A stretch of DNA of 64,000 nucleotides. It comes from a virus. The stretch spans positions 1-64,000 of the IMG/VR virus record IMGVR_UViG_3300030101_001745. One strand, given 5' to 3'. The translations under genes and the position numbers were made by a program. The notes beneath the pieces were generated by a model. It searched no databases. It saw only the letters and a program-made list of their open reading frames with translations, and was not told the origin of the DNA. Positions 484 through 59,839 of this stretch are shown here, in pieces (position 1 is the stretch's first letter; each line of letters opens with the position of its first letter).

Positions 484-2721
484 TTGTCTTTCATGGATAT
501 TCTAAGGAAAGACACGGAAGATGATGCGGCACGTTTGAGAGAAATGCTAGGTATCAAGGATGATGGTACATATGAACAAAGAACCGAACGTTCCGAAGAA
601 GAGAAACCAGAAGAGGAACCAGAAAAGAAACCGAAGAAAAAGGTTAACCCACTAGCAGAATCGACTCTTGATATTCCTGCATATAGCAGAGATAAAAGAA
701 CAGTGTTTGGTAGAGTTAGATACAAAGACGAGAAGATGCCTCAAGAGACTAGGGAAAGAGAAAAAATTAGTGGACGTAAGATAGAAAGTGCCTATGATAG
801 TTTAGGAAAGGAAATAGATGATTCGTGGCTACAAGTCTGGATTTGGTATTCAGACGATATCATGGGTGGGTTAGATTCTTGGACAAGAAATCTGTTTAAG
901 GCAGAAGAGAGTGCTGATGAAATTGAAGTTGAATTAGGTATAGAGAATCCGTTTAGTAAAAGTATCATGAGTGCAAGTGGTCTTACTTCACGTATGCGAC
1001 CAACTGGAAAGGAATTCAAGGAGGCTGGTGGTCGAGGTAAACTTAGAAGCCAACATCGGAGAGATTTTCAAAAGGTCGCCATGGATTATGACAAGGCAGT
1101 ATCTGAGGCATTGAAGGGAGTTGGCTATCAACCTGCAAGAGAACTCACAGACGCAGAGGTATCAGAACAAGAACGAGAGTCTGCAAGACAGAGAGAGGAA
1201 AGGGGAACAGATGAGGAAGGAAAACCAATTCCCATGCAGATGCCTAAGACTTCCGAGAAATATACACAGGAAGACATGTCAGTAATGAGAACGCTCCTTG
1301 ACAAGTTTGATGACGCGGGGGGAAAGATTCCAGAGATTCTCCTATTCCAAAGAAAGAGAGAACCACACACGATGACAATAGAAGACATCCCAGACGAAGA
1401 AGGTGGTGAACAAGAGAACACTCCGCCAACAACTAGGGAGATAACCGTTCAAGCACCTACTGGAGATGATTTCCGAGTACCCGGCATCAGCACAAGGAGA
1501 CTCAACAAATATGCAAGTGACCTAGGACTGTCCTCTGAGGAAGAGACAAAGAAAGTATCTGATACGCACAACACTACAGAAGAAGGAACCATAGTCGAGA
1601 GGACTTGGACTTTCAACCGATTGGATGCGGATAAGAAACTGCTTGAGATGCTTGGTAAGACACCAAAGGAAAGACAGGACATCAGAGATGCTATGATAAG
1701 AGATGTTCCAGAACCGGGTAAAGACCAACCCAAGCAGAAGATTGGTAGCAAGGTTACTACAAGGACTGGCCCAGTTGCTGGAAAAGTCTCAGAACTCTAT
1801 CAGAGAGTAAAGAACTTCTTCGATGAAGTATTCAACCTCCTATCTGTCGAACAATCACCTACCTTGGAGAGCGAGGTTCTCGATGTTACTGCTGGAATTG
1901 GTGAAAAAGGAAGAAAAGCGGCGAAGGAAAAGAGAGAGCGACAAGACCAACTTGGTAGGACACTAGCAAGAATTCTCAAGAACCATGCAGAAGGTAATGA
2001 AAAAACAGCAGGTGAAGCACTTTCAAAAATAAGCGCAGACAATCTAATTCTCATACAGAAGTTTCTCACTAGAGGAAATAAGAAGTTGGCCCGAACAGCA
2101 AGAGATGCATTGATAGAAAATTACAATGATAGCGAGTGGGATGCTAAGACGAAAAGATGGGTAAATAAGAAAACAGGGGAACCTGCATACAAGACATACG
2201 CAGGTAGGAGTACGCTTGAGTTAATTCCAGAGATACTCAACAAGAACAAGAAGAGAATACTTCCCGATAGAAGGACACAAGGACAGATACTCTCTGAGTT
2301 AGAAGAATTCTCAACTCCAGAATTCAACTTAACTAGGTTCGACCAAGGAGATGGTAAGCCTAGAAGAAAGGAATACACGTTGTCCGAGATAATGAAGGAA
2401 GTAAAGCAATTCATATCGGGAGAAGATAAGCAGATTCCACTACAAGGTAGTGCAGGTAATACTTACAGAAAATTACTATTCAAGGTAATGCAAAAATTGC
2501 GTACTGACTATGATGATGGTAAGACGGGAGAACTAGAATCTGATATTGAAATGATAGAATTCCTATATGCTGTTTTACGACACATAGGGAAGAGTAGAAG
2601 AATCTCTGATGTCGCATTGGAACGTGTGGAAGATATCGCCACTACGGAAGACATACCATTCGACACCGATAGAGAGTTTGATTTACCGCCTCTCTCTCCG
2701 GCTAGTAACGAAGAAGAGTAG
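484..2721 (+). CDS. Large hypothetical head-region protein
   Basis: About 745 residues, very rich in Glu, Lys and Arg. A Trp-rich stretch lies near residues 115-135 (WLQVWIWY, then a WTRNLF segment), and Pro/Glu/Lys linkers separate it from helical regions. TTG 484 has GAGGTGA five bases upstream; ATG 493 is the alternative start. It precedes a run of small helical proteins and the ligase-protease-capsid genes, which suggests a role in the virion or its assembly. I do not recognise any enzyme motif. It could be an internal head or portal-associated protein, but that rests on position only. Confidence 0.75.
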   Translation: MSFMDILRKDTEDDAARLREMLGIKDDGTYEQRTERSEEEKPEEEPEKKPKKKVNPLAESTLDIPAYSRDKRTVFGRVRYKDEKMPQETREREKISGRKIESAYDSLGKEIDDSWLQVWIWYSDDIMGGLDSWTRNLFKAEESADEIEVELGIENPFSKSIMSASGLTSRMRPTGKEFKEAGGRGKLRSQHRRDFQKVAMDYDKAVSEALKGVGYQPARELTDAEVSEQERESARQREERGTDEEGKPIPMQMPKTSEKYTQEDMSVMRTLLDKFDDAGGKIPEILLFQRKREPHTMTIEDIPDEEGGEQENTPPTTREITVQAPTGDDFRVPGISTRRLNKYASDLGLSSEEETKKVSDTHNTTEEGTIVERTWTFNRLDADKKLLEMLGKTPKERQDIRDAMIRDVPEPGKDQPKQKIGSKVTTRTGPVAGKVSELYQRVKNFFDEVFNLLSVEQSPTLESEVLDVTAGIGEKGRKAAKEKRERQDQLGRTLARILKNHAEGNEKTAGEALSKISADNLILIQKFLTRGNKKLARTARDALIENYNDSEWDAKTKRWVNKKTGEPAYKTYAGRSTLELIPEILNKNKKRILPDRRTQGQILSELEEFSTPEFNLTRFDQGDGKPRRKEYTLSEIMKEVKQFISGEDKQIPLQGSAGNTYRKLLFKVMQKLRTDYDDGKTGELESDIEMIEFLYAVLRHIGKSRRISDVALERVEDIATTEDIPFDTDREFDLPPLSPASNEEE

Positions 2722-2729
2722 GTGACAGT

Positions 2730-3077
2730 ATGGGTTGGGAAGATATAATCAAAATACGGGAACTGAATAACTTCAAACAAGCACAAAAATATCTAGAAGG
2801 TGTACAAAAAGATATAGACACCATGATATATTTTCTAAAAGAAGAAAATGGTGGATGGAGAAGGAATAGAAACAAGTTAATGATTCTCAATGATAATTCA
2901 TATATACAACCAGACTTTGAAGACGAAGTAAATCTGCTAATGGAACTGGTAGAGGAAGTTCGTGATAAAATCAAAGAATTAGAAGAGATGCCAGAAATGG
3001 ATGATTTTGCCTTTGCGTTAGAAAATCAACGTGCAGACACAGAAAGCGGATATTATGACCCGCGCTTTGAGGGATAG
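2730..3077 (+). CDS. Small coiled-coil protein
   Basis: 115 residues, almost entirely predicted helix with heptad-like Leu/Ile spacing and a charged C-terminal tail. It starts MGWEDII. ATG 2730 has AGGTGA a few bases upstream, overlapping the end of the preceding gene. One of three consecutive small helical proteins (2730-3632) before the ligase. It may be a head-assembly or scaffolding accessory; unknown otherwise. Confidence 0.7.
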   Translation: MGWEDIIKIRELNNFKQAQKYLEGVQKDIDTMIYFLKEENGGWRRNRNKLMILNDNSYIQPDFEDEVNLLMELVEEVRDKIKELEEMPEMDDFAFALENQRADTESGYYDPRFEG

Positions 3078-3078
3078 T

Positions 3079-3408
3079 ATGAGTTGGCAATCTATTCTAA
3101 AGGCTAGTTCGATACTGGAGAAACTAGACCCGAAGGAAAAGAAGAGAGTCAAGAAACTATTGCAATCATCTCAACCTACTGAGTTCTTTGGAAAGGACAT
3201 GACACAACTAGGTGACTTAATTACAGAGATGAAATCACTGGATATGATGAAGGGCGATGAGAGTCTGAACAAGAAAATAGAATCGTTCGATGAGAAGAAC
3301 CTAGAAATAGTTGCCTCTGCCGCAGAACTAAGGAAGGACTATGAGGTTCTCTACGGTCAGATTAGAAATATGATTTATCCAAAGAAGAAAGGAGATGGAA
3401 AGAAATGA
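3079..3408 (+). CDS. Small helical protein
   Basis: 109 residues starting MSWQSIL and ending in a Lys-rich tail. Predicted helical, with a Lys/Arg patch near residues 18-27 (EKKRVKKLLQ). ATG 3079 is preferred over an earlier in-frame ATG at 3031, because it directly follows the upstream stop and has GAGGGAT upstream. Its stop overlaps the next start (ATGA). Function unknown; probably works with the neighbouring helical proteins. Confidence 0.65.
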   Translation: MSWQSILKASSILEKLDPKEKKRVKKLLQSSQPTEFFGKDMTQLGDLITEMKSLDMMKGDESLNKKIESFDEKNLEIVASAAELRKDYEVLYGQIRNMIYPKKKGDGKK

Positions 3409-3632
3409 CAGAAGACAATGAAATGATGCTACTATTGAAAGAATTAGTGAATAAGGTAAAGAGTTTAGAAGAAGCAGTTTATCACAAGGATAATCTGTTG
3501 ATGAAGAGTGGAATGGTCGTGGTTGACAGTCCAACTCCCGCAATGGCTCAAGGTGGAGAGTTACCCACAGGAGATACGATTGCGAAGATGGATTGGGATG
3601 ACATTCACAATATGGTCGAGAGGATGAGTTAG
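3405..3632 (+). CDS. Small protein with C-terminal WDDIHN motif
   Basis: 75 residues. The N-terminal half is a Leu/Lys/Glu helix, the middle is a Pro/Gly linker, and the C-terminus ends DWDDIHNMVERMS. The same W-x-D-I-H-N ending occurs in the scaffold part of the protease-scaffold gene (8240-8297), which suggests that both proteins dock on the same partner. Translationally coupled to the gene before by ATGA and adjacent to the next one. Confidence 0.65.
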   Translation: MTEDNEMMLLLKELVNKVKSLEEAVYHKDNLLMKSGMVVVDSPTPAMAQGGELPTGDTIAKMDWDDIHNMVERMS

Positions 3633-4427
3633 ATGCCAGAGAGAGTAAGCAAAGAAGAGATGCTGGTGAGAGCCGCCATAATCAAAGCAAAGGAAAGCAT
3701 ACAGGAAGCAGAACATCTAGGAATCGTTGAGAATAAAGACCCAGTTATGGGAGAGGAAATCAAGGTCAAAAGACCAAAGAAGAAGCCAGCAGAAGAGAAG
3801 GTAGACAACCCTGTGTCCACAGATGACATCAACTCTGGATATGGTCATGTTGGAAGCGAGGAATACTTCGGCAAGGGATTGGACTCAGTTGCGAAGTTGT
3901 CTCCACAGTTGGAAGGACTCCTAGATGAATTGACTCAAGCAATACAAAGAGTGCAAGGGAAAGATAAGAGAGAACTAGAGGAAAAGATGCATGAGATTCT
4001 AAGTGACATCAAGGGTAGTCCTAGAGTATTAAGTTCCCCACCTTCTATGGATAACGAGTTTAGAAGCGAAGCAGACATAGAAGAGAGATTAGGTAAAGAG
4101 GATGAGGAAGAAGAAGAAGAAAAAATCTATCTCGATAAGTCGGTTGATGAATGGAAGACTCTTTTGAAATATAGAATAGAAGAGCCGATGAACCCGAAGA
4201 CCATGGGTGAAATGATAGGCTGTCCCAAATGCGGTGGTAGCGGAACGTTAGGAGGAAGGCCAGTTAAGACGTATGGTAAAGGTGGTAAGAATCCCGGCGG
4301 AATGCAGACATGTGATTTATGTCGCGGGTTAGGAAAAGTAAGCAGACTTACGGCGCGTCAACATAGTCAAGATGAATACAATAGGAAGATGGGTGACAAT
4401 ACTGGCCCAGCCCCGTCCAAAGCATAA
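3633..4427 (+). CDS. Zinc-binding protein with DnaJ-like Cys repeats
   Basis: 264 residues. The N-terminal two thirds are charged and probably helical, with an acidic run near residue 155. Near the C-terminus are C197-x2-C200-G-G-x-G and C227-x2-C230-x-G-x-G, the form of the DnaJ central zinc domain, here with only one pair of CxxC repeats. No J-domain HPD motif is seen. In phages such modules appear in small assembly or DNA-binding proteins. Position suggests a role in head morphogenesis or with the following ligase; this is inference. Confidence 0.7.
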   Translation: MPERVSKEEMLVRAAIIKAKESIQEAEHLGIVENKDPVMGEEIKVKRPKKKPAEEKVDNPVSTDDINSGYGHVGSEEYFGKGLDSVAKLSPQLEGLLDELTQAIQRVQGKDKRELEEKMHEILSDIKGSPRVLSSPPSMDNEFRSEADIEERLGKEDEEEEEEKIYLDKSVDEWKTLLKYRIEEPMNPKTMGEMIGCPKCGGSGTLGGRPVKTYGKGGKNPGGMQTCDLCRGLGKVSRLTARQHSQDEYNRKMGDNTGPAPSKA

Positions 4428-4439
4428 GGTGGATTCTGT

Positions 4440-7034
4440 GTGGTTGAAACAGGATTGATGTTTGAGAAAGAAACTGAGGATTTGACTAGAGCAATTCTTG
4501 ATTTCTTTGAGAAGACACGATACGCCTATCTTTCAGCCAGAGAAGACAAAGCAGAGTATGAGAAGGAATGGCACGAAGTCATAGATAAAATCAGAGATGA
4601 CTACGACTCGCTAAACAAACTGTCTGAGGAATTGAAGAAGTATCTAGAAGAGAAGGTTCTATTCGATAAGTCTGCTAAAGACCCAACCACTCTAGAAGCC
4701 AAGAAGGTATATGAAGCCGTAAAGGACATGAGGTTTCAGTCCAAGAAGGTTAGCGACCCGTTCTCTAAGAAGTTTGAAGGGGATGTAATAAACACCCTAT
4801 TGGAAAGTGACAGACTCTTCATCGCATTTATCCACTACGCACTACGTTCCCATTCCAATGCCCTTCCCGATAAAATATGGGAAGAACACGACATGGAGGG
4901 AGATGATATCACTCAAGGTGTAATGGGATTGGATTTAGAGATGGATGACATACCTCTCTACATCATAGAACACTATGGGGCAGAAGATGAAGACCAAAGC
5001 AGAATCAAGTCAAAGTTCAAGGGGGCGTTGAAGCAACTTGACAAGATGTTCAATGGTGTATACGAAGATGAACAATGGGATAATCTAGTTGAGTTAGACC
5101 TAGAGAAGAGCGAAGATGAGAAGAGCGAAGATGAGAAATCGGAGATAGATTTCATCATACCAAACAAGCCAATGTACAGGATATTTGAGTTGGATGACTT
5201 GAAGGAGTTGAAAGGATTTACTGGAGAGTGGTTAGTTCAAGAGAAGTATGATGGCATGAGAATACAACTTCACAAGAAGAAGGATAACATCAAGATATAC
5301 TCATACAATAAGAAGGATATTACTGACAAATGTGAGAAGCAAGTCGAGCAACTAAAGAAGAAGCAGTTCGGGGATTGCATACTAGATGGAGAGTTGGTTC
5401 TGTTTGAGGATGATGAACCACTACATCGGGCTTCTACCATTGCTCATGTTTTCAAGAACAAGAAAGGTGGAGAACTAAGAGCGCATGTGTTTGACATAAT
5501 GCAACATGAGGGCAAGGACATTCATGATGAACCATTGAGGGAGAGACATAACGTCCTTCTATACCAATTCAGCCAACACTCATCTGATGCTCTCGCTTTC
5601 CCATCGAAGAAAGATACCAGAGTTGCAGACTCAGTCAAGGAAGTAGGAGAGTATGCGAAAGACATCATGCAACTACCTGCATCGGAAGGAGTGGTAATCA
5701 AGGATATGGAGTCAACATATCCAATTACAAAGAAGAAGAATCCGAAGTGGATTAAGTGGAAAAAGTTCGTTGACTTGGATGTTATTGTACTAGATAAGAA
5801 ATCCACTAACAACGGAATGCATACTTACACTATGGGAGTAGGCCCGATTACTGCGGAAGAGGCTAGGACTTACACTACTACAGACATGGATGATAAGGCA
5901 TATGTTCCAGTTGGTAAGGCACTCAACACCAAGGTAAAGGTAAGTGTCGGAGACATAGTTAGAGTAAAAGTTGATGAAGTTAAGAAGAATAAGAAGGGAT
6001 TCAATCTCTACTCCGCTAAGGTAATAGAGATACCAGAGGTAACTCAATCTGACAAACTATCCACGTTGGAGAGGTTATCTACAAAGACAAAGAAATCCTT
6101 GACTTCAGACGCTATCATTGGAGTTCAACAACTCAGCCCATTCAAAATTACAACCGGATTAAGGGATAAGGACAATGAGAAGAAATCGTACATGATAACG
6201 GATAACGTACATGGTACTGCTGAGATAATTATGAAGAGTGATTTTGATGGTTTTACCATATATGGATTTGAAGGTGATTCACTCATGCAGAAGAACGCAT
6301 TGTACAATCTAGATATGTGGAAGTCTGAACTAGAGAGGATGTTGAAAACCAGAAGGTCAGAATTGAGAATCGCAATCAAGAATGAAATAATAGACATATA
6401 CAAGAACAAACCAACTGCCTTTCCTAAGATAGTTGATTTCGTAAAGAAGGAGTTCCCAGAGACATACGAAGAGGTTTTCCAGAGTAGCGATGAGAATCTG
6501 ATGAGTTGGATGAAGAAACAAGATAGTCTGAGATATCATCATCCCAACAAGTTTACTGCTATACCAGATGTTCTAGAGAAGGATGTCGAGGAATTAAAAA
6601 AAAGAGAAACAGGTTCGTTTAGCATCGTCTTAAGAGAAGATGGTAACTTGGATTTTATCATGAATGTTAATGACAAGAGAAACTTCTGGGAGATTGATAT
6701 AGAAGACACCGAGGACATATACGATTTGTTTGGTAAGTCTGGGAAGTTCCCTGCTATTGTAGGAAAGAAGTTAGGTCAACATAAGAAGGAGATAGACTCT
6801 GGTAAGTTAATACTAGGCGTACAGAAAGAAGGATACCATGAATACAAACTAGAAGGTGATAAGTTTGATACTAGATTCCACGTTAGAGTTGTACCTCTAG
6901 ATGAAAAGCAGACTTGGGTTGTTTGGACAGGTAAAAAACAAGAGATGTTGGATATGAAAGACGATACAAAACTCTGGGATATTACAGAAGATAAATATGC
7001 AGATTTGTCATTTCCAACTAAAAAATCAGATTAA
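4440..7034 (+). CDS. ATP-dependent DNA ligase with long N- and C-terminal extensions
   Basis: 864 residues. The nucleotidyltransferase core is clear: motif I K269-Y-D-G with the AMP-accepting Lys, motif III D316-G-E-L, motif IV E416-G-V-V-I-K, motif V W-I-K-W-K-K around 437-442, then an OB-fold region to about 540. It would seal nicks in DNA using ATP. About 220 helical residues precede the core, including a short acidic repeat (KSEDEKSEDEKSE). About 300 residues follow it, ending in a beta-rich domain that faintly recalls LigD-type phosphoesterase barrels; that comparison is weak. GTG 4440 follows GGTGG. It sits between head genes and the prohead protease, not with the replication genes, so it may act on packaged or packaging DNA. 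Confidence 0.9.
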   Translation: MVETGLMFEKETEDLTRAILDFFEKTRYAYLSAREDKAEYEKEWHEVIDKIRDDYDSLNKLSEELKKYLEEKVLFDKSAKDPTTLEAKKVYEAVKDMRFQSKKVSDPFSKKFEGDVINTLLESDRLFIAFIHYALRSHSNALPDKIWEEHDMEGDDITQGVMGLDLEMDDIPLYIIEHYGAEDEDQSRIKSKFKGALKQLDKMFNGVYEDEQWDNLVELDLEKSEDEKSEDEKSEIDFIIPNKPMYRIFELDDLKELKGFTGEWLVQEKYDGMRIQLHKKKDNIKIYSYNKKDITDKCEKQVEQLKKKQFGDCILDGELVLFEDDEPLHRASTIAHVFKNKKGGELRAHVFDIMQHEGKDIHDEPLRERHNVLLYQFSQHSSDALAFPSKKDTRVADSVKEVGEYAKDIMQLPASEGVVIKDMESTYPITKKKNPKWIKWKKFVDLDVIVLDKKSTNNGMHTYTMGVGPITAEEARTYTTTDMDDKAYVPVGKALNTKVKVSVGDIVRVKVDEVKKNKKGFNLYSAKVIEIPEVTQSDKLSTLERLSTKTKKSLTSDAIIGVQQLSPFKITTGLRDKDNEKKSYMITDNVHGTAEIIMKSDFDGFTIYGFEGDSLMQKNALYNLDMWKSELERMLKTRRSELRIAIKNEIIDIYKNKPTAFPKIVDFVKKEFPETYEEVFQSSDENLMSWMKKQDSLRYHHPNKFTAIPDVLEKDVEELKKRETGSFSIVLREDGNLDFIMNVNDKRNFWEIDIEDTEDIYDLFGKSGKFPAIVGKKLGQHKKEIDSGKLILGVQKEGYHEYKLEGDKFDTRFHVRVVPLDEKQTWVVWTGKKQEMLDMKDDTKLWDITEDKYADLSFPTKKSD

Positions 7035-52022: not shown

Positions 52023-52718
52023 TTATATCTCCATTTTTGTTTCTTTGTTCAGAGTGTTTATTACTCTCTCTGCTAGAGTTTGGCCTACGCCTTCTATTTC
52101 GCACAATTCTGAAATTGTTGCTTCTCCTATTTCCATGATAGAACCAAATTTGTCTAACATGAGTTTAGCCTTATTCAGACTAATTCCTTTGATTGTAGTC
52201 AGAACATCCACCCTCAAATCGGTGGTGGTTATTCTCTTTACAATTCTAGGAGTGTATACTTCTCTGGTGATTGGTTGCATTTTACATACCGTACAAATCA
52301 CCTCTGCGGCAGTCAATGAGTCCTTGACCCATACTACACTACAATCGGTATCTAGTATTATTCTGCCTAATGCACCATAGAACTTTTTCCAAGTCAAGGT
52401 GCGTAGGACTTTTGGATTGATATCAGACTTGACATGTGCAAGATGTTGTCTGAATGCTTTGTCAAATGAACCGTGTACTATCACAAGGTTATTGTCAAAG
52501 GCTCTATCCATGTTATCTAGTTGCTTCCACAGTCGCTTGTTCTGTACTGACTGTAGGAAGTCGAAGGATGACTTCGCTTCAAAGCAGACGTTGTTGAAGG
52601 TATAGTCTCCAAACTCAATCCATTCTTTCTCAAAGGGTATGTTCATCTTTCTTGCTTTCTCTTCCACTTGTTCCGTTAGAACAGAATTTTCCCTACTGTC
52701 AATAATGAGTTTGTTCAT
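52023..52718 (-). CDS. ERCC4/XPF-type nuclease with HhH domain
   Basis: 231 residues. Nuclease motif IIDSREN (D7, R9, E10), then GDYTF (D38) and FEAKSSFDFL (E47, K49) instead of the usual ERK. The C-terminus has helix-hairpin-helix motifs (TIKGISLNKAKLML and ISELCEIEGVGQTLAERV). Such enzymes cut branched or flap DNA in repair and replication fork restart. Start overlaps the upstream zinc microprotein stop. Fits a role with the primase and clamp in this module. Confidence 0.88.
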   Translation of the reverse strand: MNKLIIDSRENSVLTEQVEEKARKMNIPFEKEWIEFGDYTFNNVCFEAKSSFDFLQSVQNKRLWKQLDNMDRAFDNNLVIVHGSFDKAFRQHLAHVKSDINPKVLRTLTWKKFYGALGRIILDTDCSVVWVKDSLTAAEVICTVCKMQPITREVYTPRIVKRITTTDLRVDVLTTIKGISLNKAKLMLDKFGSIMEIGEATISELCEIEGVGQTLAERVINTLNKETKMEI

Positions 52719-52849
52719 CTGAAAACCTCCCTGTGATTACATGAATTGCATTTCATTACTGCCTTCTGTATCTTTGTACCTGCTCTTTGATAGGGGAGTT
52801 TGGTAGCAAACATCCTACCTTTGCATATTGGACACTTAACTCCCCGCAT
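52715..52849 (-). CDS. Zinc-ribbon microprotein
   Basis: 44 residues: C6-x2-C9 and C34-x2-C37 in a basic chain. The second ATG (52849) is chosen because GGGAGG sits seven bases upstream. Overlaps both neighbours. Possibly DNA-binding. Confidence 0.62.
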   Translation of the reverse strand: MRGVKCPICKGRMFATKLPYQRAGTKIQKAVMKCNSCNHREVFR

Positions 52850-53006
52850 TTCTTTTCCTCCCATGTCTATCTACCTTAGAGTAATCTGTCATTGTCTGTA
52901 TCTTTTTACAGTCTAGGCAAATTCTCTTCTTCACATTGGGAGGTGATGGTAGTTTACCCCATCTATTACATGGGCATCTGTTATCCTTGAACCGAATGCT
53001 ACTCAT
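52836..53006 (-). CDS. Zinc-binding microprotein
   Basis: 56 residues with CPCNRWG near 11-17 and ICLDCKK near 29-35, C-terminus basic. ATG 53006 has GGAGGT six bases upstream and lies inside the primase end. No family recognised. Confidence 0.62.
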   Translation of the reverse strand: MSSIRFKDNRCPCNRWGKLPSPPNVKKRICLDCKKIQTMTDYSKVDRHGRKRNAGS

Positions 53007-53991
53007 CAGGATACCTCCAACACCTGCCAATACAATATCCTTGTGGTATTAGAACAGACTCGCAACCCGGAGCATGATACCCCTTCTGCACGATTCCCCT
53101 AACATATTTCTCACTTAGACCACGATTCCAATCAAGCCAGATACCCGGCTTCTCTGCTATTGTCTCCAATTCATCCATAACCATACTTACTATCTTCTCC
53201 TGTTGTGGTAGCCCGATGTGTCTCTCACCTATGCTTAGTAAATCTCTATACCATTGAATGAGATACACCCTAGCATAGTGACTAGGATTCTCAACTGTAA
53301 TGGCGTTCTGCAAGCATGGCAGGATAGGTAGGTTTGCCAGTTTGTCTGGCATTTCAATCTCGGTGTCTGATACACTAACTGGTTTGACTTTCGGCCAATC
53401 AATCAGTTTGCCACCATACACGAAGTCTTCCTGTACTTGTTTCTTCGCCATCTCAATGATAGTATCAACATTTGCCGTCTTATCCATATCTAGTGGAATA
53501 CAATAGTATCCATCACTACTTAGGTTGAGTGTGTTTGGTATCCTACGAAGTCTGGTGGTCTGAATGCCTGTCCTGTCTAACGTAGGATAATCCTTAGCCA
53601 ACTCGGTATAATACGCTTGAATGCTTCTGATATCATCTGCTCTCTTACCATAAGCGATGATGTGAAAACCTTTGCCAGAAAAGAATGGTCTGAACTTGAT
53701 ACCCTCGTCTTGAAACTTCTTACATACTCCACGGAAATCTCTGTGGGCATTATCCAATGGTTCACCGTGAGCATCAAAATCCAGAAACATCTTGTCTAGA
53801 ATAGCAGAACTATCTATCTTGGTATTGTCCGTGAACCTCTCAAACTCATACACGGTCATGTAGCAGTTCATTCTGCCATTGTTCATGTTCAACCATTTCA
53901 GATATTCTTCTCTACTCTTCACTAGTTTTCTTGGTATTTGCCTTGAGCCTTTGATGTGACTTCCGGCCCAAACTTCCCTTGGGTATCTCAT
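52999..53991 (-). CDS. Archaeo-eukaryotic primase with Fe-S-type C-terminal domain
   Basis: 330 residues. Catalytic core: FLDFDA with D71 and D73, SGKGFHI (105-111) and TLDRTGIQTTRLRR (D139, R147-R150), as in the small primase subunit PriS. The C-terminal half carries four Cys (226, 310, 320, 324) in the pattern of the iron-sulphur domain of PriL. So one chain seems to hold both functions: nucleotide transfer and product initiation. It would make primers for the split polymerase. ATG 53991 follows GGAGATGAT; longer frame to 54024 is less likely. Confidence 0.85.
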   Translation of the reverse strand: MRYPREVWAGSHIKGSRQIPRKLVKSREEYLKWLNMNNGRMNCYMTVYEFERFTDNTKIDSSAILDKMFLDFDAHGEPLDNAHRDFRGVCKKFQDEGIKFRPFFSGKGFHIIAYGKRADDIRSIQAYYTELAKDYPTLDRTGIQTTRLRRIPNTLNLSSDGYYCIPLDMDKTANVDTIIEMAKKQVQEDFVYGGKLIDWPKVKPVSVSDTEIEMPDKLANLPILPCLQNAITVENPSHYARVYLIQWYRDLLSIGERHIGLPQQEKIVSMVMDELETIAEKPGIWLDWNRGLSEKYVRGIVQKGYHAPGCESVLIPQGYCIGRCWRYPDE

Positions 53992-54381: not shown

Positions 54382-54498
54382 TCATTCTTCCTCTCTTATT
54401 TGTTCCTCTATGCATTTTCTACACCATCTATTTCCCATCATTATGAAATCATTACATGTCTCACATTTTACGGTGACTATGCCATTCAAACTAACCAT
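54382..54498 (-). CDS. Zinc-finger microprotein
   Basis: 38 residues with C12-x2-C15 and C26-x2-C29 and an acidic tail. ATG 54498 lies inside the polymerase C-terminal gene end, overlapping it by 13 bases. Likely translated by coupling. Confidence 0.55.
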   Translation of the reverse strand: MVSLNGIVTVKCETCNDFIMMGNRWCRKCIEEQIREEE

Positions 54499-55400
54499 TC
54501 CCCCAAGGCACTTTGATTTCTATCTTTCTTAATTGCCTGTAAGTCCCATTCCATTGCATGATAGATTGGTGTGGCTTTCTTTAGAACCGACTCTGCATAA
54601 TGTCTCCAATCTGGTTCATGCCATGACTCCGATAGTTCCTTCTCCGTTATGAAGGAGAAGTAGGATGGTCTTGTTGACCTACCAGAGAACGGATGTGTGT
54701 ATGTGGCGGGAGAGTGTGGGTCAATCCTAAAGTACAGATATGAATCTGTAATAGGTGTATCCGATATAGTATCGTGATACAATACACCCTCTATCCCAGA
54801 ACCGATGGTAGGTCGCTTTCCTTCTGATGTGACATAATCTGGTTTATCACAACACTCTCTTCCCATCTGCTTTCTCTCCATCAACTCATGAAGGGTAAAG
54901 TTACTCTTCCAACCGTTCTTCCTACAGTTGTTACAGATTACCTTGAACCTAGATTCTTTGTATCTCGTTCTTGTTAGAACATCGCTAACAGGAATCTTAC
55001 CTTTTAATACTGCATTGTAAAGACCATGTAGGTAATCAGTTACCTCTTCTTCACTACATGCATTGACCCACATGTTCAAGACTTGTGTTTGTGTCTCCTT
55101 ACCTAGTTTAGTGATAGACTGTCTCTTGGCAGTAAAACCAGTCATTGAGAACTCGTCTTCTTCAAGGAACTCCCCATCTTTCCAAGTAATCAACCCTGCG
55201 TTCCTGTTCTTTGTCACACCTACACCTAGAGTTTTGAAATACTTCTCAAACTCTAACTGTACAGGATGCTCATCCAAACCTAGAATGTTTGGAAACAACT
55301 TCTGTACTTCCTTGTTTATATGCTCTACTGCTTCCTTACCTTTCTCAACAGATTCACAATCTACATAGATGGAATCCGTGTGTCCATAAACTACCTTCAT
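54486..55400 (-). CDS. polB: Family-B DNA polymerase, C-terminal part (split)
   Basis: 304 residues starting MKVVYGHTDSIYV: the first residues are polymerase motif C (YGDTDS in most relatives, here YGHTDS with the catalytic TD kept). The rest is the remaining palm and thumb, including FTAKRQSITKLGKETQT and a Cys cluster near 156-185 (CNNC, CC). It must pair with the part at 55864-57543 to form an active enzyme. ATG 55400 has its own AAGGAGAGA site, so it is translated independently. No intein-like ends are seen. Confidence 0.88.
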   Translation of the reverse strand: MKVVYGHTDSIYVDCESVEKGKEAVEHINKEVQKLFPNILGLDEHPVQLEFEKYFKTLGVGVTKNRNAGLITWKDGEFLEEDEFSMTGFTAKRQSITKLGKETQTQVLNMWVNACSEEEVTDYLHGLYNAVLKGKIPVSDVLTRTRYKESRFKVICNNCRKNGWKSNFTLHELMERKQMGRECCDKPDYVTSEGKRPTIGSGIEGVLYHDTISDTPITDSYLYFRIDPHSPATYTHPFSGRSTRPSYFSFITEKELSESWHEPDWRHYAESVLKKATPIYHAMEWDLQAIKKDRNQSALGEWLV

Positions 55401-55633
55401 TATTCTCTCTCCTTGTAATTATCATGGTCTTTAGGTAACTTGTGTTGCCTTCTTTCCATCATGTTTCTAAGATAACCGCTAATGTTAGTGGCTCCTGTTC
55501 GGAAACGCTTCTCAGCAATCTTGTCTCCTTTCGGAACCATTTCGGCCATTAGGCCATCTAACCATGCTCTTCTTCCTACCCAATCTAATATTTCATATTC
55601 TACGTGTGCTACGCTTCTCGCTCTTCTTTCCAT
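55400..55633 (-). CDS. Small basic protein between the polymerase halves
   Basis: 77 residues, helical, with many Arg, Glu and Lys and a C-terminal basic segment. GGAATTGAT precedes ATG 55633. It overlaps both the zinc protein and the C-terminal polymerase gene. No homing endonuclease (HNH, GIY-YIG, LAGLIDADG) motif is visible. Unknown. Confidence 0.6.
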   Translation of the reverse strand: MERRARSVAHVEYEILDWVGRRAWLDGLMAEMVPKGDKIAEKRFRTGATNISGYLRNMMERRQHKLPKDHDNYKERE

Positions 55634-55812
55634 TTTATCAATTCCTTTTTTATTTTCATAATCATTTTTTCATCTAAATGTGGGAATGGATTCACCATTC
55701 TCAGATAGTCGTGTAGCCAATGTCCGATACATACTTTGCACACGAAACCATGTTCCGTCATACAACCCTCGGACTCTACATGACATACCGTACATCTAGC
55801 CACCTCTCCCAT
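55609..55812 (-). CDS. Zinc-finger protein between the polymerase halves
   Basis: 67 residues with C7-x2-C10, C17 and C25-x2-C28 followed by a His, plus a charged helical C-terminus. ATG 55812 has GGAGGAAG upstream. Might mediate contact between the polymerase parts; that is speculation. Unknown family. Confidence 0.62.
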   Translation of the reverse strand: MGEVARCTVCHVESEGCMTEHGFVCKVCIGHWLHDYLRMVNPFPHLDEKMIMKIKKELIKWKEEREA

Positions 55813-55867
55813 GTCGCTTCCTCCATGCTTTCCTCGCTTTGAAGTAAGACTCCCAAGTTTGGCTCAT
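55796..55867 (-). CDS. Very short basic ORF after polymerase N-part
   Basis: 23 residues (MSQTWESYFKARKAWRKRHG and three more). Its ATG overlaps the polymerase N-part stop (ATGA), and GAGGCGAT sits four bases upstream, the same signal that precedes the polymerase gene itself. Possibly a real microprotein or just a coupling leader. Confidence 0.4.
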   Translation of the reverse strand: MSQTWESYFKARKAWRKRHGRGG

Positions 55868-57543
55868 TCGTATCGCCTCGCTTGGTAGGCCGCTTCTCTA
55901 ATTGCTTCTCTAGCACTAGCAGTAATTGCCTCTGCTAATTCGATATCACACCAACCGTATCCTTGGAATCCAACAATCCCATAGAACGAAGCCATTAATC
56001 TCTTGACCGCTAGTTGGTTGTTGTTCCACATAACGTACTCGGATTTGTCAGATGCATTTTTCATATTCACCTTGTACTCATTCCTCAACTTCTTCAATCC
56101 CAAAAGAGAACGTGGCAGAAGTCCTAAGTCATCCGTCTTGAAGTATCTCATATTCGTGTGAGTTGATTCACTGAAATCCTTGGGAGTGCTGATATTTACT
56201 GCAAACTCAGTTGGTACTCTCGATTTTGTCTCCCACGAAATGTTTCTTGCAATCATCATGCTCGGATACAGACCCGCGAAGTCAAATGCGGCTACACCGA
56301 AATGTAGCCCATTTGTGCCTTCACTAAGCGGGTCATATACCATCGCCCCATCATATGACCTAGACTCTCCTTTCTTGCCTGTAGGAGCCTTCCAAGAAGC
56401 ATTACGCATGAAGTAAATTCCTGCCATCTTAGTCGCATGATGACATGCATCATACGGTGCTTTCAGAAGTCTCTGTAGAGATAGTATTGCTTCCGTGATG
56501 TGATTGGTAGTATCTAGTTCAACTAGCAATTCTACGTCTATCCTAGCATACTCCAGATAGACATCTGAATCCTCCAACCAAGCCCTAGCAAAGAATTCGT
56601 TCTTGTCTGGAAACCTATTACTCACTAGTTTCTTCTTTCCAAGAACGGTTTCACCTATGTAGTCAAGTGCCATTGAAGGCAATGTTCCTCTCTGAGAATC
56701 CAACCATTGTCTTTCAAACGCCGCATCTAGAGCAACACATATCCTACCCTTGATTGGTTGGTATGTAGGTGAGTAACTGTTCACCTTTCTCTTATCCATA
56801 GCGACTTGCTTTGTCTTCTTATCCCAATACACTCCACTAACTTCATCACAAGGAGAAAGCAGTTGAGCATCTAACTTGTTATGGATGAGCCTCTCAATCA
56901 ACTTAGGCAGGTCGAACTTCCAACCGAACCAAGAGATAAGCATGTCTGGGTCATGGAAGATGATATCGCTAAGGAAAGCCTGTAGCATCTTCTTCTCAGA
57001 AGAATAAAACTTCGCACCTTGTCCTAGCCCATCTGTGTCTCTACCATCTGGATACCAAACATATGTCTTGTACCAATTGTCATAACTGTCGTATGTAGCA
57101 ATACAAGTAATCGCGCCGTCATGTTCTCCACCTTGCATCCATTCCATATCCCAATACAACTTTCTCATTTCATACTCTGGAAAGAAATCCGGGTTCTCTA
57201 TAGCATACCTGTGATGATGTGCAACATCTCCTTCGTATGTGTCAATATTGTTTCTGTCAAACCAGTTTCTCATCAACTTAGCATAGTGTGGTTTTGGTGG
57301 TGACCAAGAAACTTGCTTTAGTCTATCACCGTCAAGATTGACGAAATCAGTCTTCTCGTATGATGGCTTCAATGTGAAACTACCATAGGCATCTCTACCC
57401 TTGCACTCATTCATCTCAACCTCACTATCCTTGATGTAGAACCTAGGCTTGAATTCATCGAAGGATACTTCCTTCGTCTGAACCTTCTTGTATTCATCTC
57501 TCCATCTAAGCAGTATTCCCTTTGTCGTAGTATCAATAATCAT
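55864..57543 (-). CDS. polB: Family-B DNA polymerase, N-terminal part (split)
   Basis: 559 residues. 3'-5' proofreading exonuclease motifs: WDMEW (D132, E134), SWFGWKFD (D211), YARID (D336). Polymerase motif A DFAGLYPS at 421-428 and motif B K514 with SFYG at 519-522. It ends about 37 residues after motif B, so motif C is absent; that lies in the gene at 54486. ATG 57543 follows GAGGCGAT. The PCNA-like gene is directly upstream. Together the two parts form the replicative polymerase. No frameshift or intein explains the split. Confidence 0.92.
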   Translation of the reverse strand: MIIDTTTKGILLRWRDEYKKVQTKEVSFDEFKPRFYIKDSEVEMNECKGRDAYGSFTLKPSYEKTDFVNLDGDRLKQVSWSPPKPHYAKLMRNWFDRNNIDTYEGDVAHHHRYAIENPDFFPEYEMRKLYWDMEWMQGGEHDGAITCIATYDSYDNWYKTYVWYPDGRDTDGLGQGAKFYSSEKKMLQAFLSDIIFHDPDMLISWFGWKFDLPKLIERLIHNKLDAQLLSPCDEVSGVYWDKKTKQVAMDKRKVNSYSPTYQPIKGRICVALDAAFERQWLDSQRGTLPSMALDYIGETVLGKKKLVSNRFPDKNEFFARAWLEDSDVYLEYARIDVELLVELDTTNHITEAILSLQRLLKAPYDACHHATKMAGIYFMRNASWKAPTGKKGESRSYDGAMVYDPLSEGTNGLHFGVAAFDFAGLYPSMMIARNISWETKSRVPTEFAVNISTPKDFSESTHTNMRYFKTDDLGLLPRSLLGLKKLRNEYKVNMKNASDKSEYVMWNNNQLAVKRLMASFYGIVGFQGYGWCDIELAEAITASAREAIREAAYQARRYE

Positions 57544-57544
57544 T

Positions 57545-58312
57545 CTATCGCCTCAAGTAAGGTGCTTTGACCAACAAAGAGTTAGCAGTAGTTATGATAA
57601 CCGGAGAGTCATCTCGCAAATAAAGAGTCACATAGTTGTCGCTTCCCAGAAACTTGGTAATGTTACCAGTAAACTCAACAGATGCACCATCACCACTTGA
57701 CTCAGCAACGAGTATGTCAGCAGTAAATCCGTCTGTCATACTACGTTGACTCGATAGGGTCAAGGACTCACCATCAAAGACAAACTTGTATCTAGCCAAG
57801 TTAGTGACATCACAACCCTTCACCGCATTGAGCAACTCCGTGGTTGGTATCTTCACCATGTTGTCATACTTGGTCTTACCAAACGTGGGGTAGTCTTCTT
57901 CTGAAAGGATTGCATCAAACCTCTCCCTAACTAGATTCACCATAGTGATTGCCGGATGCTCTACGACAACAGGTAACTTAGCCTTACTGTTACCATCGTC
58001 TAGAGTCACAAAGCCATCAACCGACATGGTGACATCATCCTCAAAGGGACTCAGATACTTACCCAACTTGGTGATATCCAACACACACGTTCCGTCTAGC
58101 GAATCACCATCCTCTTGCAATATACTATCTTTAATAATACAAGCAGTAGTGTTGTCACCATTGGTTAGTATTGTCTGACCATTCACCACTTCGATGTGAA
58201 CGTAGTTGGATAGTACGCCATTCTTTGCAGACTCACCATCGTAATACTTTCCTCTCATCTCTACTCTATCTAACATTTCATTAAATTCATTCTTCTTCAT
58301 TTCTATTCTCAT
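57545..58312 (-). CDS. PCNA-like sliding clamp
   Basis: 255 residues, two-domain alternating strand/helix layout with acidic faces. It ends in a hydrophobic strand and Arg pair (SLLVKAPYLRR), as clamps do. Size matches PCNA (about 250). Directly upstream of the polymerase and in a module with an RFC-like loader. It would ring the DNA and hold the polymerase. Sequence motifs of PCNA are weak, so context carries much of the call. ATG 58312 has GAGGAATA upstream. Confidence 0.78.
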   Translation of the reverse strand: MRIEMKKNEFNEMLDRVEMRGKYYDGESAKNGVLSNYVHIEVVNGQTILTNGDNTTACIIKDSILQEDGDSLDGTCVLDITKLGKYLSPFEDDVTMSVDGFVTLDDGNSKAKLPVVVEHPAITMVNLVRERFDAILSEEDYPTFGKTKYDNMVKIPTTELLNAVKGCDVTNLARYKFVFDGESLTLSSQRSMTDGFTADILVAESSGDGASVEFTGNITKFLGSDNYVTLYLRDDSPVIITTANSLLVKAPYLRR

Positions 58313-58448
58313 TTTTATTCCTCAAATATTCTTCATATTCTCCTTCCAATGTTCCCCAATCCTCACATTCGGAACATACTGTAGCACCATAATAGCACAG
58401 GTTCTCATGACAAACCGTACATTCAACTGCGTGTCTATTCTTCCCCAT
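58287..58448 (-). CDS. Zinc-finger microprotein
   Basis: 53 residues with C10-x2-C13, C18 and C25-x2-C28, then a Glu/Asn-rich tail. Its end overlaps the clamp gene start by 26 bases, and its start overlaps the upstream gene. Possibly a regulator or structural partner of the clamp; unknown. Confidence 0.58.
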   Translation of the reverse strand: MGKNRHAVECTVCHENLCYYGATVCSECEDWGTLEGEYEEYLRNKNENRNEEE

Positions 58449-58716
58449 GATTCATCGCCTCATATCTTGCAAGTCGTTGCTCTAACTCAAACTTACCAAA
58501 CTCTATCACAGACCGTAGAGATGTCTCAAACTTCTCATCTCCGAACAGGCTTGCCATTCTGTAGGGTATCACTATCAAACAGTCACATGCATCACAACAT
58601 CTACCATCAGCAACAGGTTGAGCATTGTTTCCATGTGTCCAATACACCTTACCATTGTGGCTTCTGTGTTCTATGTCTTTCTTACAAAGAACACATTGTA
58701 TAACTTCCTCACTCAT
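58435..58716 (-). CDS. Zinc-binding protein of a phage type
   Basis: About 93 residues. N-terminal CVLCKKDIEHRSHNGKVYW, then NNAQPVADGRCCDACD with further Cys, then a helical C-terminus. This Cys layout and the GxVYW ... NAxPV pattern are familiar from small proteins in marine phages. ATG 58716 overlaps the Cas4-like gene stop. Function unknown, probably nucleic-acid-binding. Confidence 0.68.
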   Translation of the reverse strand: MSEEVIQCVLCKKDIEHRSHNGKVYWTHGNNAQPVADGRCCDACDCLIVIPYRMASLFGDEKFETSLRSVIEFGKFELEQRLARYEAMNHGEE

Positions 58717-59579
58717 ACCCATCCCGCCATACTAGCAGTAGGACATATGCTGAAATAACTGCAACTAGCACAAGACCTTTCGTTGTACTTACCTTCAAAG
58801 GCATTATTCTCGTAAGCATGTACCAAGTTGGCGATGCCTTTCAACATAGCACTCTCACTAATCTTCTTCACCTTCTCCACTTGGATATGGTTTGCTACGG
58901 GAAAGTACCAACCCCAATGGGTCATCTCATATTGTGGGTCTATGCCCTTTTCTCTAAGGTGAGCATCAGTTGATTCATCAAATAGCAACTTGTAGAATGC
59001 CATTTCCTTTCTCATACCTGTAGCCTTATGTTTGCCCCATGCACCTGTTTTCAACTCCATGGGAATGTAACCACCTTCACTGAAATACAACCTGTCGATT
59101 ATACCTTGCAGGTGAACCAGATAGTTTCTCTTTAACTCAACATGGTCAAAGGCACTAGCCCTAACTAGAAACTCAGCATCCAACATTACTTCATTTAAGA
59201 CTGGTAGGAAATCCTCAGTTTCTCCTTCATCCTTAGCATCCATCAAACGATTAGCATCGAAACATGCCATCGAATAGTAGACATCTGTGTAGTCATCTAT
59301 TGGATAGAGACTGTAGTTGTATGCTATCAATTCCTCTAGTGTCTCCATACTCTCTGCCTTCTTCAAGTCGTAGACGTTGAAGTAATCCTCTCTGGCATTG
59401 TGTATGATAGTCCCTTTGGTCATAGCCTCAGTAGTATCCTGTGGTAGTCTCTCTCGATAGTTGAAGTGATATTTCTGTGGACACCAGTTGTATGAGCCTT
59501 GCGAAGATTTTGTTATCTTCAATATAGGCCCATCTGGATACTCATCTACCTTCCAATCATATGTGAATTCTCTCATCAT
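58713..59579 (-). CDS. Cas4-like RecB-family nuclease with Fe-S cluster
   Basis: 288 residues of the PD-(D/E)XK fold: H60, D162 in GIIDRLY, E175 and K177 in MELKTG. Four Cys typical of Cas4/AddB-type iron-sulphur sites: C33 near the N-terminus and C270, C273, C279 near the C-terminus. Such enzymes trim DNA ends for recombination or end processing. No CRISPR array or other cas genes are near, so it is part of viral DNA replication/recombination, as in several archaeal viruses. Confidence 0.85.
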   Translation of the reverse strand: MMREFTYDWKVDEYPDGPILKITKSSQGSYNWCPQKYHFNYRERLPQDTTEAMTKGTIIHNAREDYFNVYDLKKAESMETLEELIAYNYSLYPIDDYTDVYYSMACFDANRLMDAKDEGETEDFLPVLNEVMLDAEFLVRASAFDHVELKRNYLVHLQGIIDRLYFSEGGYIPMELKTGAWGKHKATGMRKEMAFYKLLFDESTDAHLREKGIDPQYEMTHWGWYFPVANHIQVEKVKKISESAMLKGIANLVHAYENNAFEGKYNERSCASCSYFSICPTASMAGWV

Positions 59580-59839
59580 TCTTTCAAGTCTCCTATGGGG
59601 TTATTCTTCTTCATTCCATACCACCCTTCTGTTACGAAGGGCAGACCCATATACTCAGCATAGTGCTTCTCTGTGCAGAAACCTCTGATGCCTACAGGCG
59701 TATCTTCAACGTAGAAGGTAGCAGGTTCATCGCACAATGCACAAGTGAACACTTCTCTATGTCTGAATTCAGCCAACTTACTTTTTGAAAGACCTATGAT
59801 TACTTTAGCACCTGTTGGGTCTGCCCTTCCATACTTCAT
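59576..59839 (-). CDS. Zinc-binding small protein
   Basis: 87 residues with CALCDEPATFYVED, then GFCTEKHYAEYMG, a Cys2...Cys-His zinc site, and a charged C-terminus. Overlaps the Cas4-like gene by four bases. Unknown. Confidence 0.65.
   Translation of the reverse strand: MKYGRADPTGAKVIIGLSKSKLAEFRHREVFTCALCDEPATFYVEDTPVGIRGFCTEKHYAEYMGLPFVTEGWYGMKKNNPIGDLKE

Follow-up and report, generated by a model that had tools for sequence, protein, structure and literature searches.

A family-B DNA polymerase encoded as two genes, with a variable spacer between them, in magrovirus-like viruses

In a 64,000-nt stretch of viral DNA (the window; positions 1 to 64,000 of IMG/VR record IMGVR_UViG_3300030101_001745), a family-B DNA polymerase (PolB) is encoded by two genes, polB-N and polB-C, which stand apart on one strand with small genes between them. 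The question raised by this locus is whether such a break is an artefact, the relic of an intein or mobile element, or the regular state of a two-chain enzyme. A first reading of the bare sequence, hereafter the original prediction, had described a two-gene PolB broken just before catalytic motif C, with motifs A and B in one gene and motif C opening the second, and profile matches together with the motif positions bear out both statements (Table 1). The product of polB-N matched the Pfam families DNA_pol_B (E 1.3e-22) and DNA_pol_B_exo1 (E 5.1e-6), and that of polB-C matched positions 222-370 of the DNA_pol_B profile (E 3.8e-10). PHROG 262 (DNA polymerase) was the best PHROG for both halves, with polB-N covering 18-558 (E 5.6e-63) and polB-C covering 574-715, and these two genes gave the only PolB matches in the whole 101,546-base record. 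We consider it very probable (roughly 85%) that they encode a genuine family-B replicase of two subunits, already present in the ancestor of the sampled magroviruses, whose chains are translated from a single message and come together without splicing.

Table 1. Features of the split polymerase locus, in window coordinates
Feature	Coordinates	Strand	Description
polB-N	55864..57543	minus	559-aa N-terminal half of family-B DNA polymerase: N-terminal domain, 3'-5' exonuclease, palm part (motif A), fingers (motif B)
polB-C	54486..55400	minus	304-aa C-terminal half: motif C palm strand, thumb, Cys-rich insert, clamp-binding-like C-terminal peptide
Motif A FDFAGLYPS	56260..56286	minus	polB-N residues 420-428; from alignment; small variation among relatives
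Motif B KRLMASFYG	55978..56004	minus	polB-N residues 514-522; Ala replaces the usual Asn
Motif C YGHTDS	55371..55388	minus	polB-C residues 5-10; His replaces the first Asp of YGDTDS
PIP (PCNA-interacting protein) box-like C-terminus QSALGEWL	54492..54515	minus	polB-C residues 296-303; consensus of relatives QxxLxEWF
Small gene 1	55796..55867	minus	23 aa (MSQTWESYFKARKAWRKRHGRGG); ATG overlaps the polB-N stop as ATGA
Small gene 2	55609..55812	minus	67-aa CxxC...CxxC zinc-finger-like protein; family in many, not all, relatives
Small gene 3	55400..55633	minus	77 aa; TAA overlaps the polB-C ATG (TAATG); family also in other spacers
Putative sliding clamp gene	57545..58312	minus	directly upstream of polB-N; assignment by position only

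To see how general the break is, relatives were gathered from IMG/VR scans using either half, which returned hundreds, and 213 distinct contigs carried both halves. The break fell at the same residue in every one of the 213, and a fused frame was found in none. In all of these contigs polB-N ends 18-21 residues past the start of a conserved TASAR helix and polB-C starts as M-x-VVYGHTDS, the codon ahead of x-VVYGHTDS being ATG in 209, GTG in 3 and TTG in 1. A DNA-pattern scan for YGHTDS that did not require a start codon recovered the initiator in the same place in 78 of 78 hits. Because the same arrangement recurs in 213 of 213 distinct contigs, a chance origin is excluded. The original prediction had also named relatives with one dispensable half as an outcome that would count against it, and none appeared: polB-C was present in all 318 loci (overlapping loci counted) in which the 3' end of polB-N was followed by over 2.6 kb of sequence, and 0 such loci lacked it.

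Alignment with intact polymerases, a check that the original prediction had proposed, located the break precisely. The closest annotated relatives are the PolBs of the haloarchaeal tailed viruses HVTV-1, HATV-2, VOLN27B and Hardygib1, which have the same domain order and are continuous across the break, running from a helix through a short loop into the motif C strand. At this point the two magrovirus chains together are about 1 residue shorter than the intact halovirus proteins; because the latter run through with only that extra residue, the cut is placed by alignment in the loop just ahead of the motif C strand, with nothing missing. No intact or fused magrovirus PolB was found among the 213 contigs, the closest intact relatives being those of the haloviruses and of contig L290. 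The L290 protein (L290:2555-5275) carries YGDTDS and is the nearest to the magrovirus profile; it lies on a 65-kb contig that seemingly also encodes a TFB-like transcription factor and belongs to another archaeal virus lineage.

An assembly error joining the two frames, which the original prediction had set out as a way for it to fail, is excluded by 213 independent contigs. The wider possibility of an assembly error, a frameshift artefact or a join at the RNA level (by an intron or ribosomal bypass) has next to no probability, given that the frames differ among contigs, that the spacer varies from -4 to 2392 nt (median 691, 213 contigs), that the internal genes have starts of their own, and that no catalytic intron was matched in Rfam. 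With the same break in 213 of 213 contigs and intact PolBs alignable straight through it, the split is real and is neither an assembly error, nor an intein remnant, nor a recent insertion; the last is not possible as its cause.

An older origin from an intein is a separate matter. The break lies close to a known intein site inside motif C, which we take to be about six residues past it, and the split might have come from the erratic loss or decay of an intein there, or the halves might still be joined by a trans-splicing intein; the first route has been proposed for Methanobacteriales PolB3 and the second described in Nanoarchaeum (PMC4104785). Against both, the original prediction's observation that no intein ends remain at the break stands up: the edges follow intact PolBs to about 1 residue with no extra sequence, and neither edge carries intein sequence. 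The break also precedes the YGHTDS block instead of lying inside it, and the search for intact or intein-bearing relatives that had been suggested found no magrovirus of either kind. Judged from these edges, present-day trans-splicing is effectively excluded; ancient intein loss is a possible original cause, and we regard an intein origin in either form as unlikely.

The spacer itself was expected to hold three tiny genes, one of them a zinc finger, and three were found, of 23, 67 and 77 residues; a longer GTG open reading frame (ORF) at 55776-55916, overlapping the polB-N 3' end, is probably not a gene. The 67-residue protein resembled Pfam zf-Tbcl_FmdE at E 0.13, below the cut-off. Where the original prediction had given each half its own start signals, the starts are instead overlaps of the translationally coupled type. 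The polB-N stop overlaps an ATG in 104 of the 131 contigs first collected, and the stop of the upstream ORF lies at most 12 nt from the polB-C start in 130 of 131. Read from sequence, these stop/start overlaps fit one coupled message, and they also fit cassettes that bring at their end a ribosome-binding site and a start codon overlapping into whatever gene follows, as in contigs L234 and L385, where a small ORF and a polB-N have the same 3' tail in common.

The content of the spacer changes rapidly. When the gaps of the replication operon were compared, the spacer was the longest, most variable and least conserved (median 480 nt, more than 90 nt in 93%), whereas the gaps that precede polB-N and follow polB-C had medians of 4 and 37, respectively. 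Spacer ORFs of at least 45 residues grouped into 83 families, most of them unrelated to one another and 47 with a single member. A direct instance of turnover is provided by the window and L003, whose halves are both more than 99% identical in protein sequence, yet which differ directly before polB-C by a 134-nt stretch (L003:4867-5000) that holds a complete 43-residue CxxC gene and is absent from the window at 55400-55403. In five contigs the spacer is lacking altogether (-4 or -1 nt), and the polymerase is split there too.

The original prediction had offered two readings of the gap, an insertion derived from a lost intein or mobile element and a regulated assembly of the parts. In a version of the first, a homing endonuclease or other mobile gene would have broken polB and given rise to the small genes, a history under debate for gene 43 of T4-like phages 25 and 44RR (PMC2988022). 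The gain and loss of cassettes, such as the 134 nt just described, would suit that history, but no homing endonuclease was found among the spacer families with Pfam, the spacer genes fall into those 83 mostly unrelated families, the five spacerless contigs are split with no insert, and small genes turn over in other gaps of the operon too, though less; we consider it quite improbable. In a version of the second, the zinc-finger protein would be a required assembly factor or third subunit. It is encoded between the halves in the same message, and its family (F1) recurs in several lineages, but it accounts for only 26 spacer ORFs among 94 contigs, so that it cannot be a general subunit, and small CxxC proteins occur all over the region; spacers without it hold ORFs that are transmembrane, winged-helix-turn-helix-like or coiled-coil-like, or nothing. 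An obligate role for it is very unlikely, and the small genes occupy the gap without having caused it. The replication module of the window contains further small CxxC proteins at several places (52715-53030, 58287-58722 and 59576-59839), and the Hardygib1 virus likewise has annotated CxxC proteins around polB.

The chains on either side of this shifting gap are held firmly. Median dN/dS (the ratio of nonsynonymous to synonymous substitution rates) was 0.053 for polB-N and 0.051 for polB-C over 61 close pairs, so that both halves are under equal purifying selection, and a mirror-tree analysis gave r = 0.82, where 500 permutations reached at most 0.06. By structure prediction, the AlphaFold model of polB-N resembled KOD polymerase 1wns (template-modelling score 0.71), and that of polB-C resembled the C-terminal parts of Pol alpha, Pol delta and archaeal PolB, with a profile match to Pol delta 3iay at E 7.4e-7; the separately modelled halves thus match complementary parts of solved PolBs. 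In polB-N modelled alone, the N-terminal and exonuclease parts were confident, but the palm stretch around motif A (393-439) had a predicted local distance difference test score of about 34-45, which is consistent with a palm sheet that would need the strands of polB-C. At the other end of the enzyme, a QxxLxEWF-type pattern was seen at 122 of 131 polB-C C-termini, and this peptide would bind the sliding clamp.

Beyond what the original prediction had noticed, motifs B and C are themselves noncanonical. YGHTDS replaces YGDTDS, and Ala or Ser replaces the motif-B Asn, in 213 of 213 relatives, whereas the haloviral PolBs, each a single chain, have YGDTDS or GGDTDS as motif C and keep the Asn in motif B (KxxxNSxYG); magroviruses differ from them in all three respects. 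Exo I, Exo III and motif A are present as in family B, and the Exo II search pattern matched in 149 of 213, the remaining contigs differing from the pattern used. The essential metal ligands of family-B polymerases are the second Asp of motif C and the Asp of motif A. Since that second Asp is retained in magrovirus polB-C, polymerase activity despite YGHTDS is plausible.

Further evidence on how the halves relate to each other comes from the junction between them. For each junction we counted pairs of contigs that were close in one gene and far in its neighbor, using the 131 contigs collected first, whose selection had nothing to do with exchange; the RecA/clamp and SSB/RecA junctions were left out because divergent protein classes swamp the measure there. 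At polB-N/polB-C, 9 of 246 pairs were discordant. There were none at the preceding gap (0 of 258), at the following gap (0 of 371) or at the junctions beyond (0 of 312 and 0 of 251). An enlarged set, biased because it was searched with recombinant halves, gave 43 of 753 at polB-N/polB-C, from about four events, with 0 of 694 at PCNA-candidate/polB-N, 4 of 704 at polB-C/RecB and 0 of 544 at RecB/primase. In L234, for example, the clamp candidate and polB-N belong to one clade (85-97% identity to L247), while polB-C, nuclease and primase belong to another (78-88% to L171 vs 55-68% to L247). In follow-up scans the L234-type polB-C turned up, at 98-100% identity, beside two more types of polB-N, one in L385/L435 and one in L381, and a different polB-C, 100% identical in L367 and L368, was likewise paired with two polB-N types, such that near-identical polB-C genes accompany polB-N genes only about 60-70% identical. 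Identity plots placed the switch point either at the 3' end of polB-N or within the spacer.

Such mismatches could instead come from chimeric contigs, given that all of the data are metagenomic, that L234 and L381 are single contigs, and that the contig of L368 (IMGVR_UViG_3300021958_000021) is 184,733 nt long, roughly double the size of a magrovirus genome, and may be joined or chimeric. Yet the neighboring junctions of these assemblies are nearly free of incongruence, L366, which comes from a different dataset, repeats the L178 arrangement at 94-95% identity, and L385 is in agreement with L435, which leaves chimerism a doubtful explanation. Recombination at the polB-N/polB-C junction, and almost never at neighboring ones, is supported at the level of contigs by these comparisons, the single-contig cases being provisional. 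We give about even odds to the broader proposal that the split acts as a module boundary, where recombination reassorts the halves, with flanking genes, between lineages about 55-70% identical in the halves, so that mixed partners are tolerated and the replicase evolves by half-swapping. A single contig of 5,621 nt, L101, has the halves in reversed order (2585-5621: clamp candidate, small ORF, polB-C, PD-(D/E)XK nuclease, polB-N), each directly adjoining other genes.

Taken together, the locus has two chains, no fused form, conservation of both and their constant company, and its parts, with the way they are conserved, indicate a polymerase for which both chains are obligate. Three points weigh against this interpretation: YGHTDS and the lost motif-B Asn could lower activity, the low palm confidence may come from a shallow alignment (45 sequences), and some of the recombinants are represented by one metagenomic contig each, with L368 implausibly long. 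We infer from the sequences that the halves assemble and polymerize DNA. In the proposed scheme, one polycistronic message would carry polB-N, variable small genes and polB-C, with stop codons that overlap the next start, and the two proteins would assemble noncovalently; polB-N would contribute the exonuclease, fingers and motif A carboxylate, and polB-C the motif C strand, thumb and C-terminal clamp-binding peptide, with the palm sheet complete only once both halves meet. The spacer would be a permissive place for small gene cassettes that come and go, and recombination within it could exchange whole halves between lineages.

Split PolBs are known from other systems. Nanoarchaeum equitans also has a PolB in two gene parts, although those are joined by a split intein, while the magrovirus genes are without intein parts. 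For the PolB3 of Methanobacteriales, both chains are reportedly needed for activity, as found by Kelman and colleagues in 1999. That family-B polymerase, likewise in two genes and with an intein origin of the split proposed in review (PMC4104785), is cellular, in contrast to the magrovirus PolB, which falls in the B5/T4-like viral group. Phages 25 and 44RR also have a viral PolB in two adjacent genes (43A/43B); the gp43 halves of phage 25, a T4-like Aeromonas phage, copurify and are active (PMC2988022). The 44RR break, however, lies in the fingers before motif B, so that 43B holds motifs B and C, whereas the magrovirus break comes after motif B, which stays in the first gene. Poseidoniales virus YSH_150918 is the same kind of virus as that of the window, and the legend of the genome map in the Aoguangviridae profile of the International Committee on Taxonomy of Viruses labels an N- and a C-terminal PolB gene (PolB-NTD/CTD) in its replication cluster (PMC10768690). 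That profile is silent on the break, its place, the spacer content, the motif changes and any exchange of halves. The magrovirus split itself is accordingly not new; its universality, motif substitutions and reassortment appear to be unreported in the searchable literature, two key papers excepted, and what sets it apart from known split PolBs is where it breaks, its altered motifs, its universality and the apparent exchange of halves.

Concerning the virus itself, the order Magrovirales comprises archaeal tailed viruses with genomes of 90-110 kb, in which the replication and morphogenesis modules run in opposite directions and the PolB replisome is the virus's own. Here the record has 101,546 bases, a switch of strand skew lies near 48 kb, and the replication genes are on the minus strand. 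Because record size, the opposite directions of the window halves and the replication gene set all agree with magroviruses, the virus is magrovirus-like (Magrovirales) on the evidence of its genome. Magroviruses are tailed viruses associated with Poseidoniales (PMC10768690), and their PolBs have been reported as similar to the B5 group of haloviruses (PMC7544198). A conserved gene directly before polB-N (57545-58312) occupies the expected place of the clamp, and the published magrovirus map has PCNA with PolB-NTD/CTD in the replication cluster (PMC10768690); its sliding-clamp identity is unconfirmed, with no match in Pfam, PHROGs or PDB profiles and a probability of 2.3% in comparison with the HVTV-1 gene guessed to be that virus's clamp. 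A Cas4/RecB-like PD-(D/E)XK nuclease (58713-59579) appears to be a relocated gene, lying before the clamp candidate in the subgroup of the window and after polB-C in most relatives. Finally, a magrovirus-type polB-C (51% identity) occurs in contig L439 (NZMJ01000151.1), filed under a bacterial Maricaulis metagenome-assembled genome, probably as contamination.

Split family-B polymerases have so far been known as isolated cases, and here a whole abundant group of marine viruses has a two-protein replicase throughout its sampled history. Hundreds of natural pairs, matched and mismatched, are available for studying how a palm active site is assembled from two chains, and may offer heterodimeric polymerases for split-enzyme tools. 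The group also allows one to ask whether the split serves regulation or is simply tolerated, and what makes this place in the operon open to new small genes. It thus offers a natural experiment on the assembly and evolution of a replication enzyme in two pieces.

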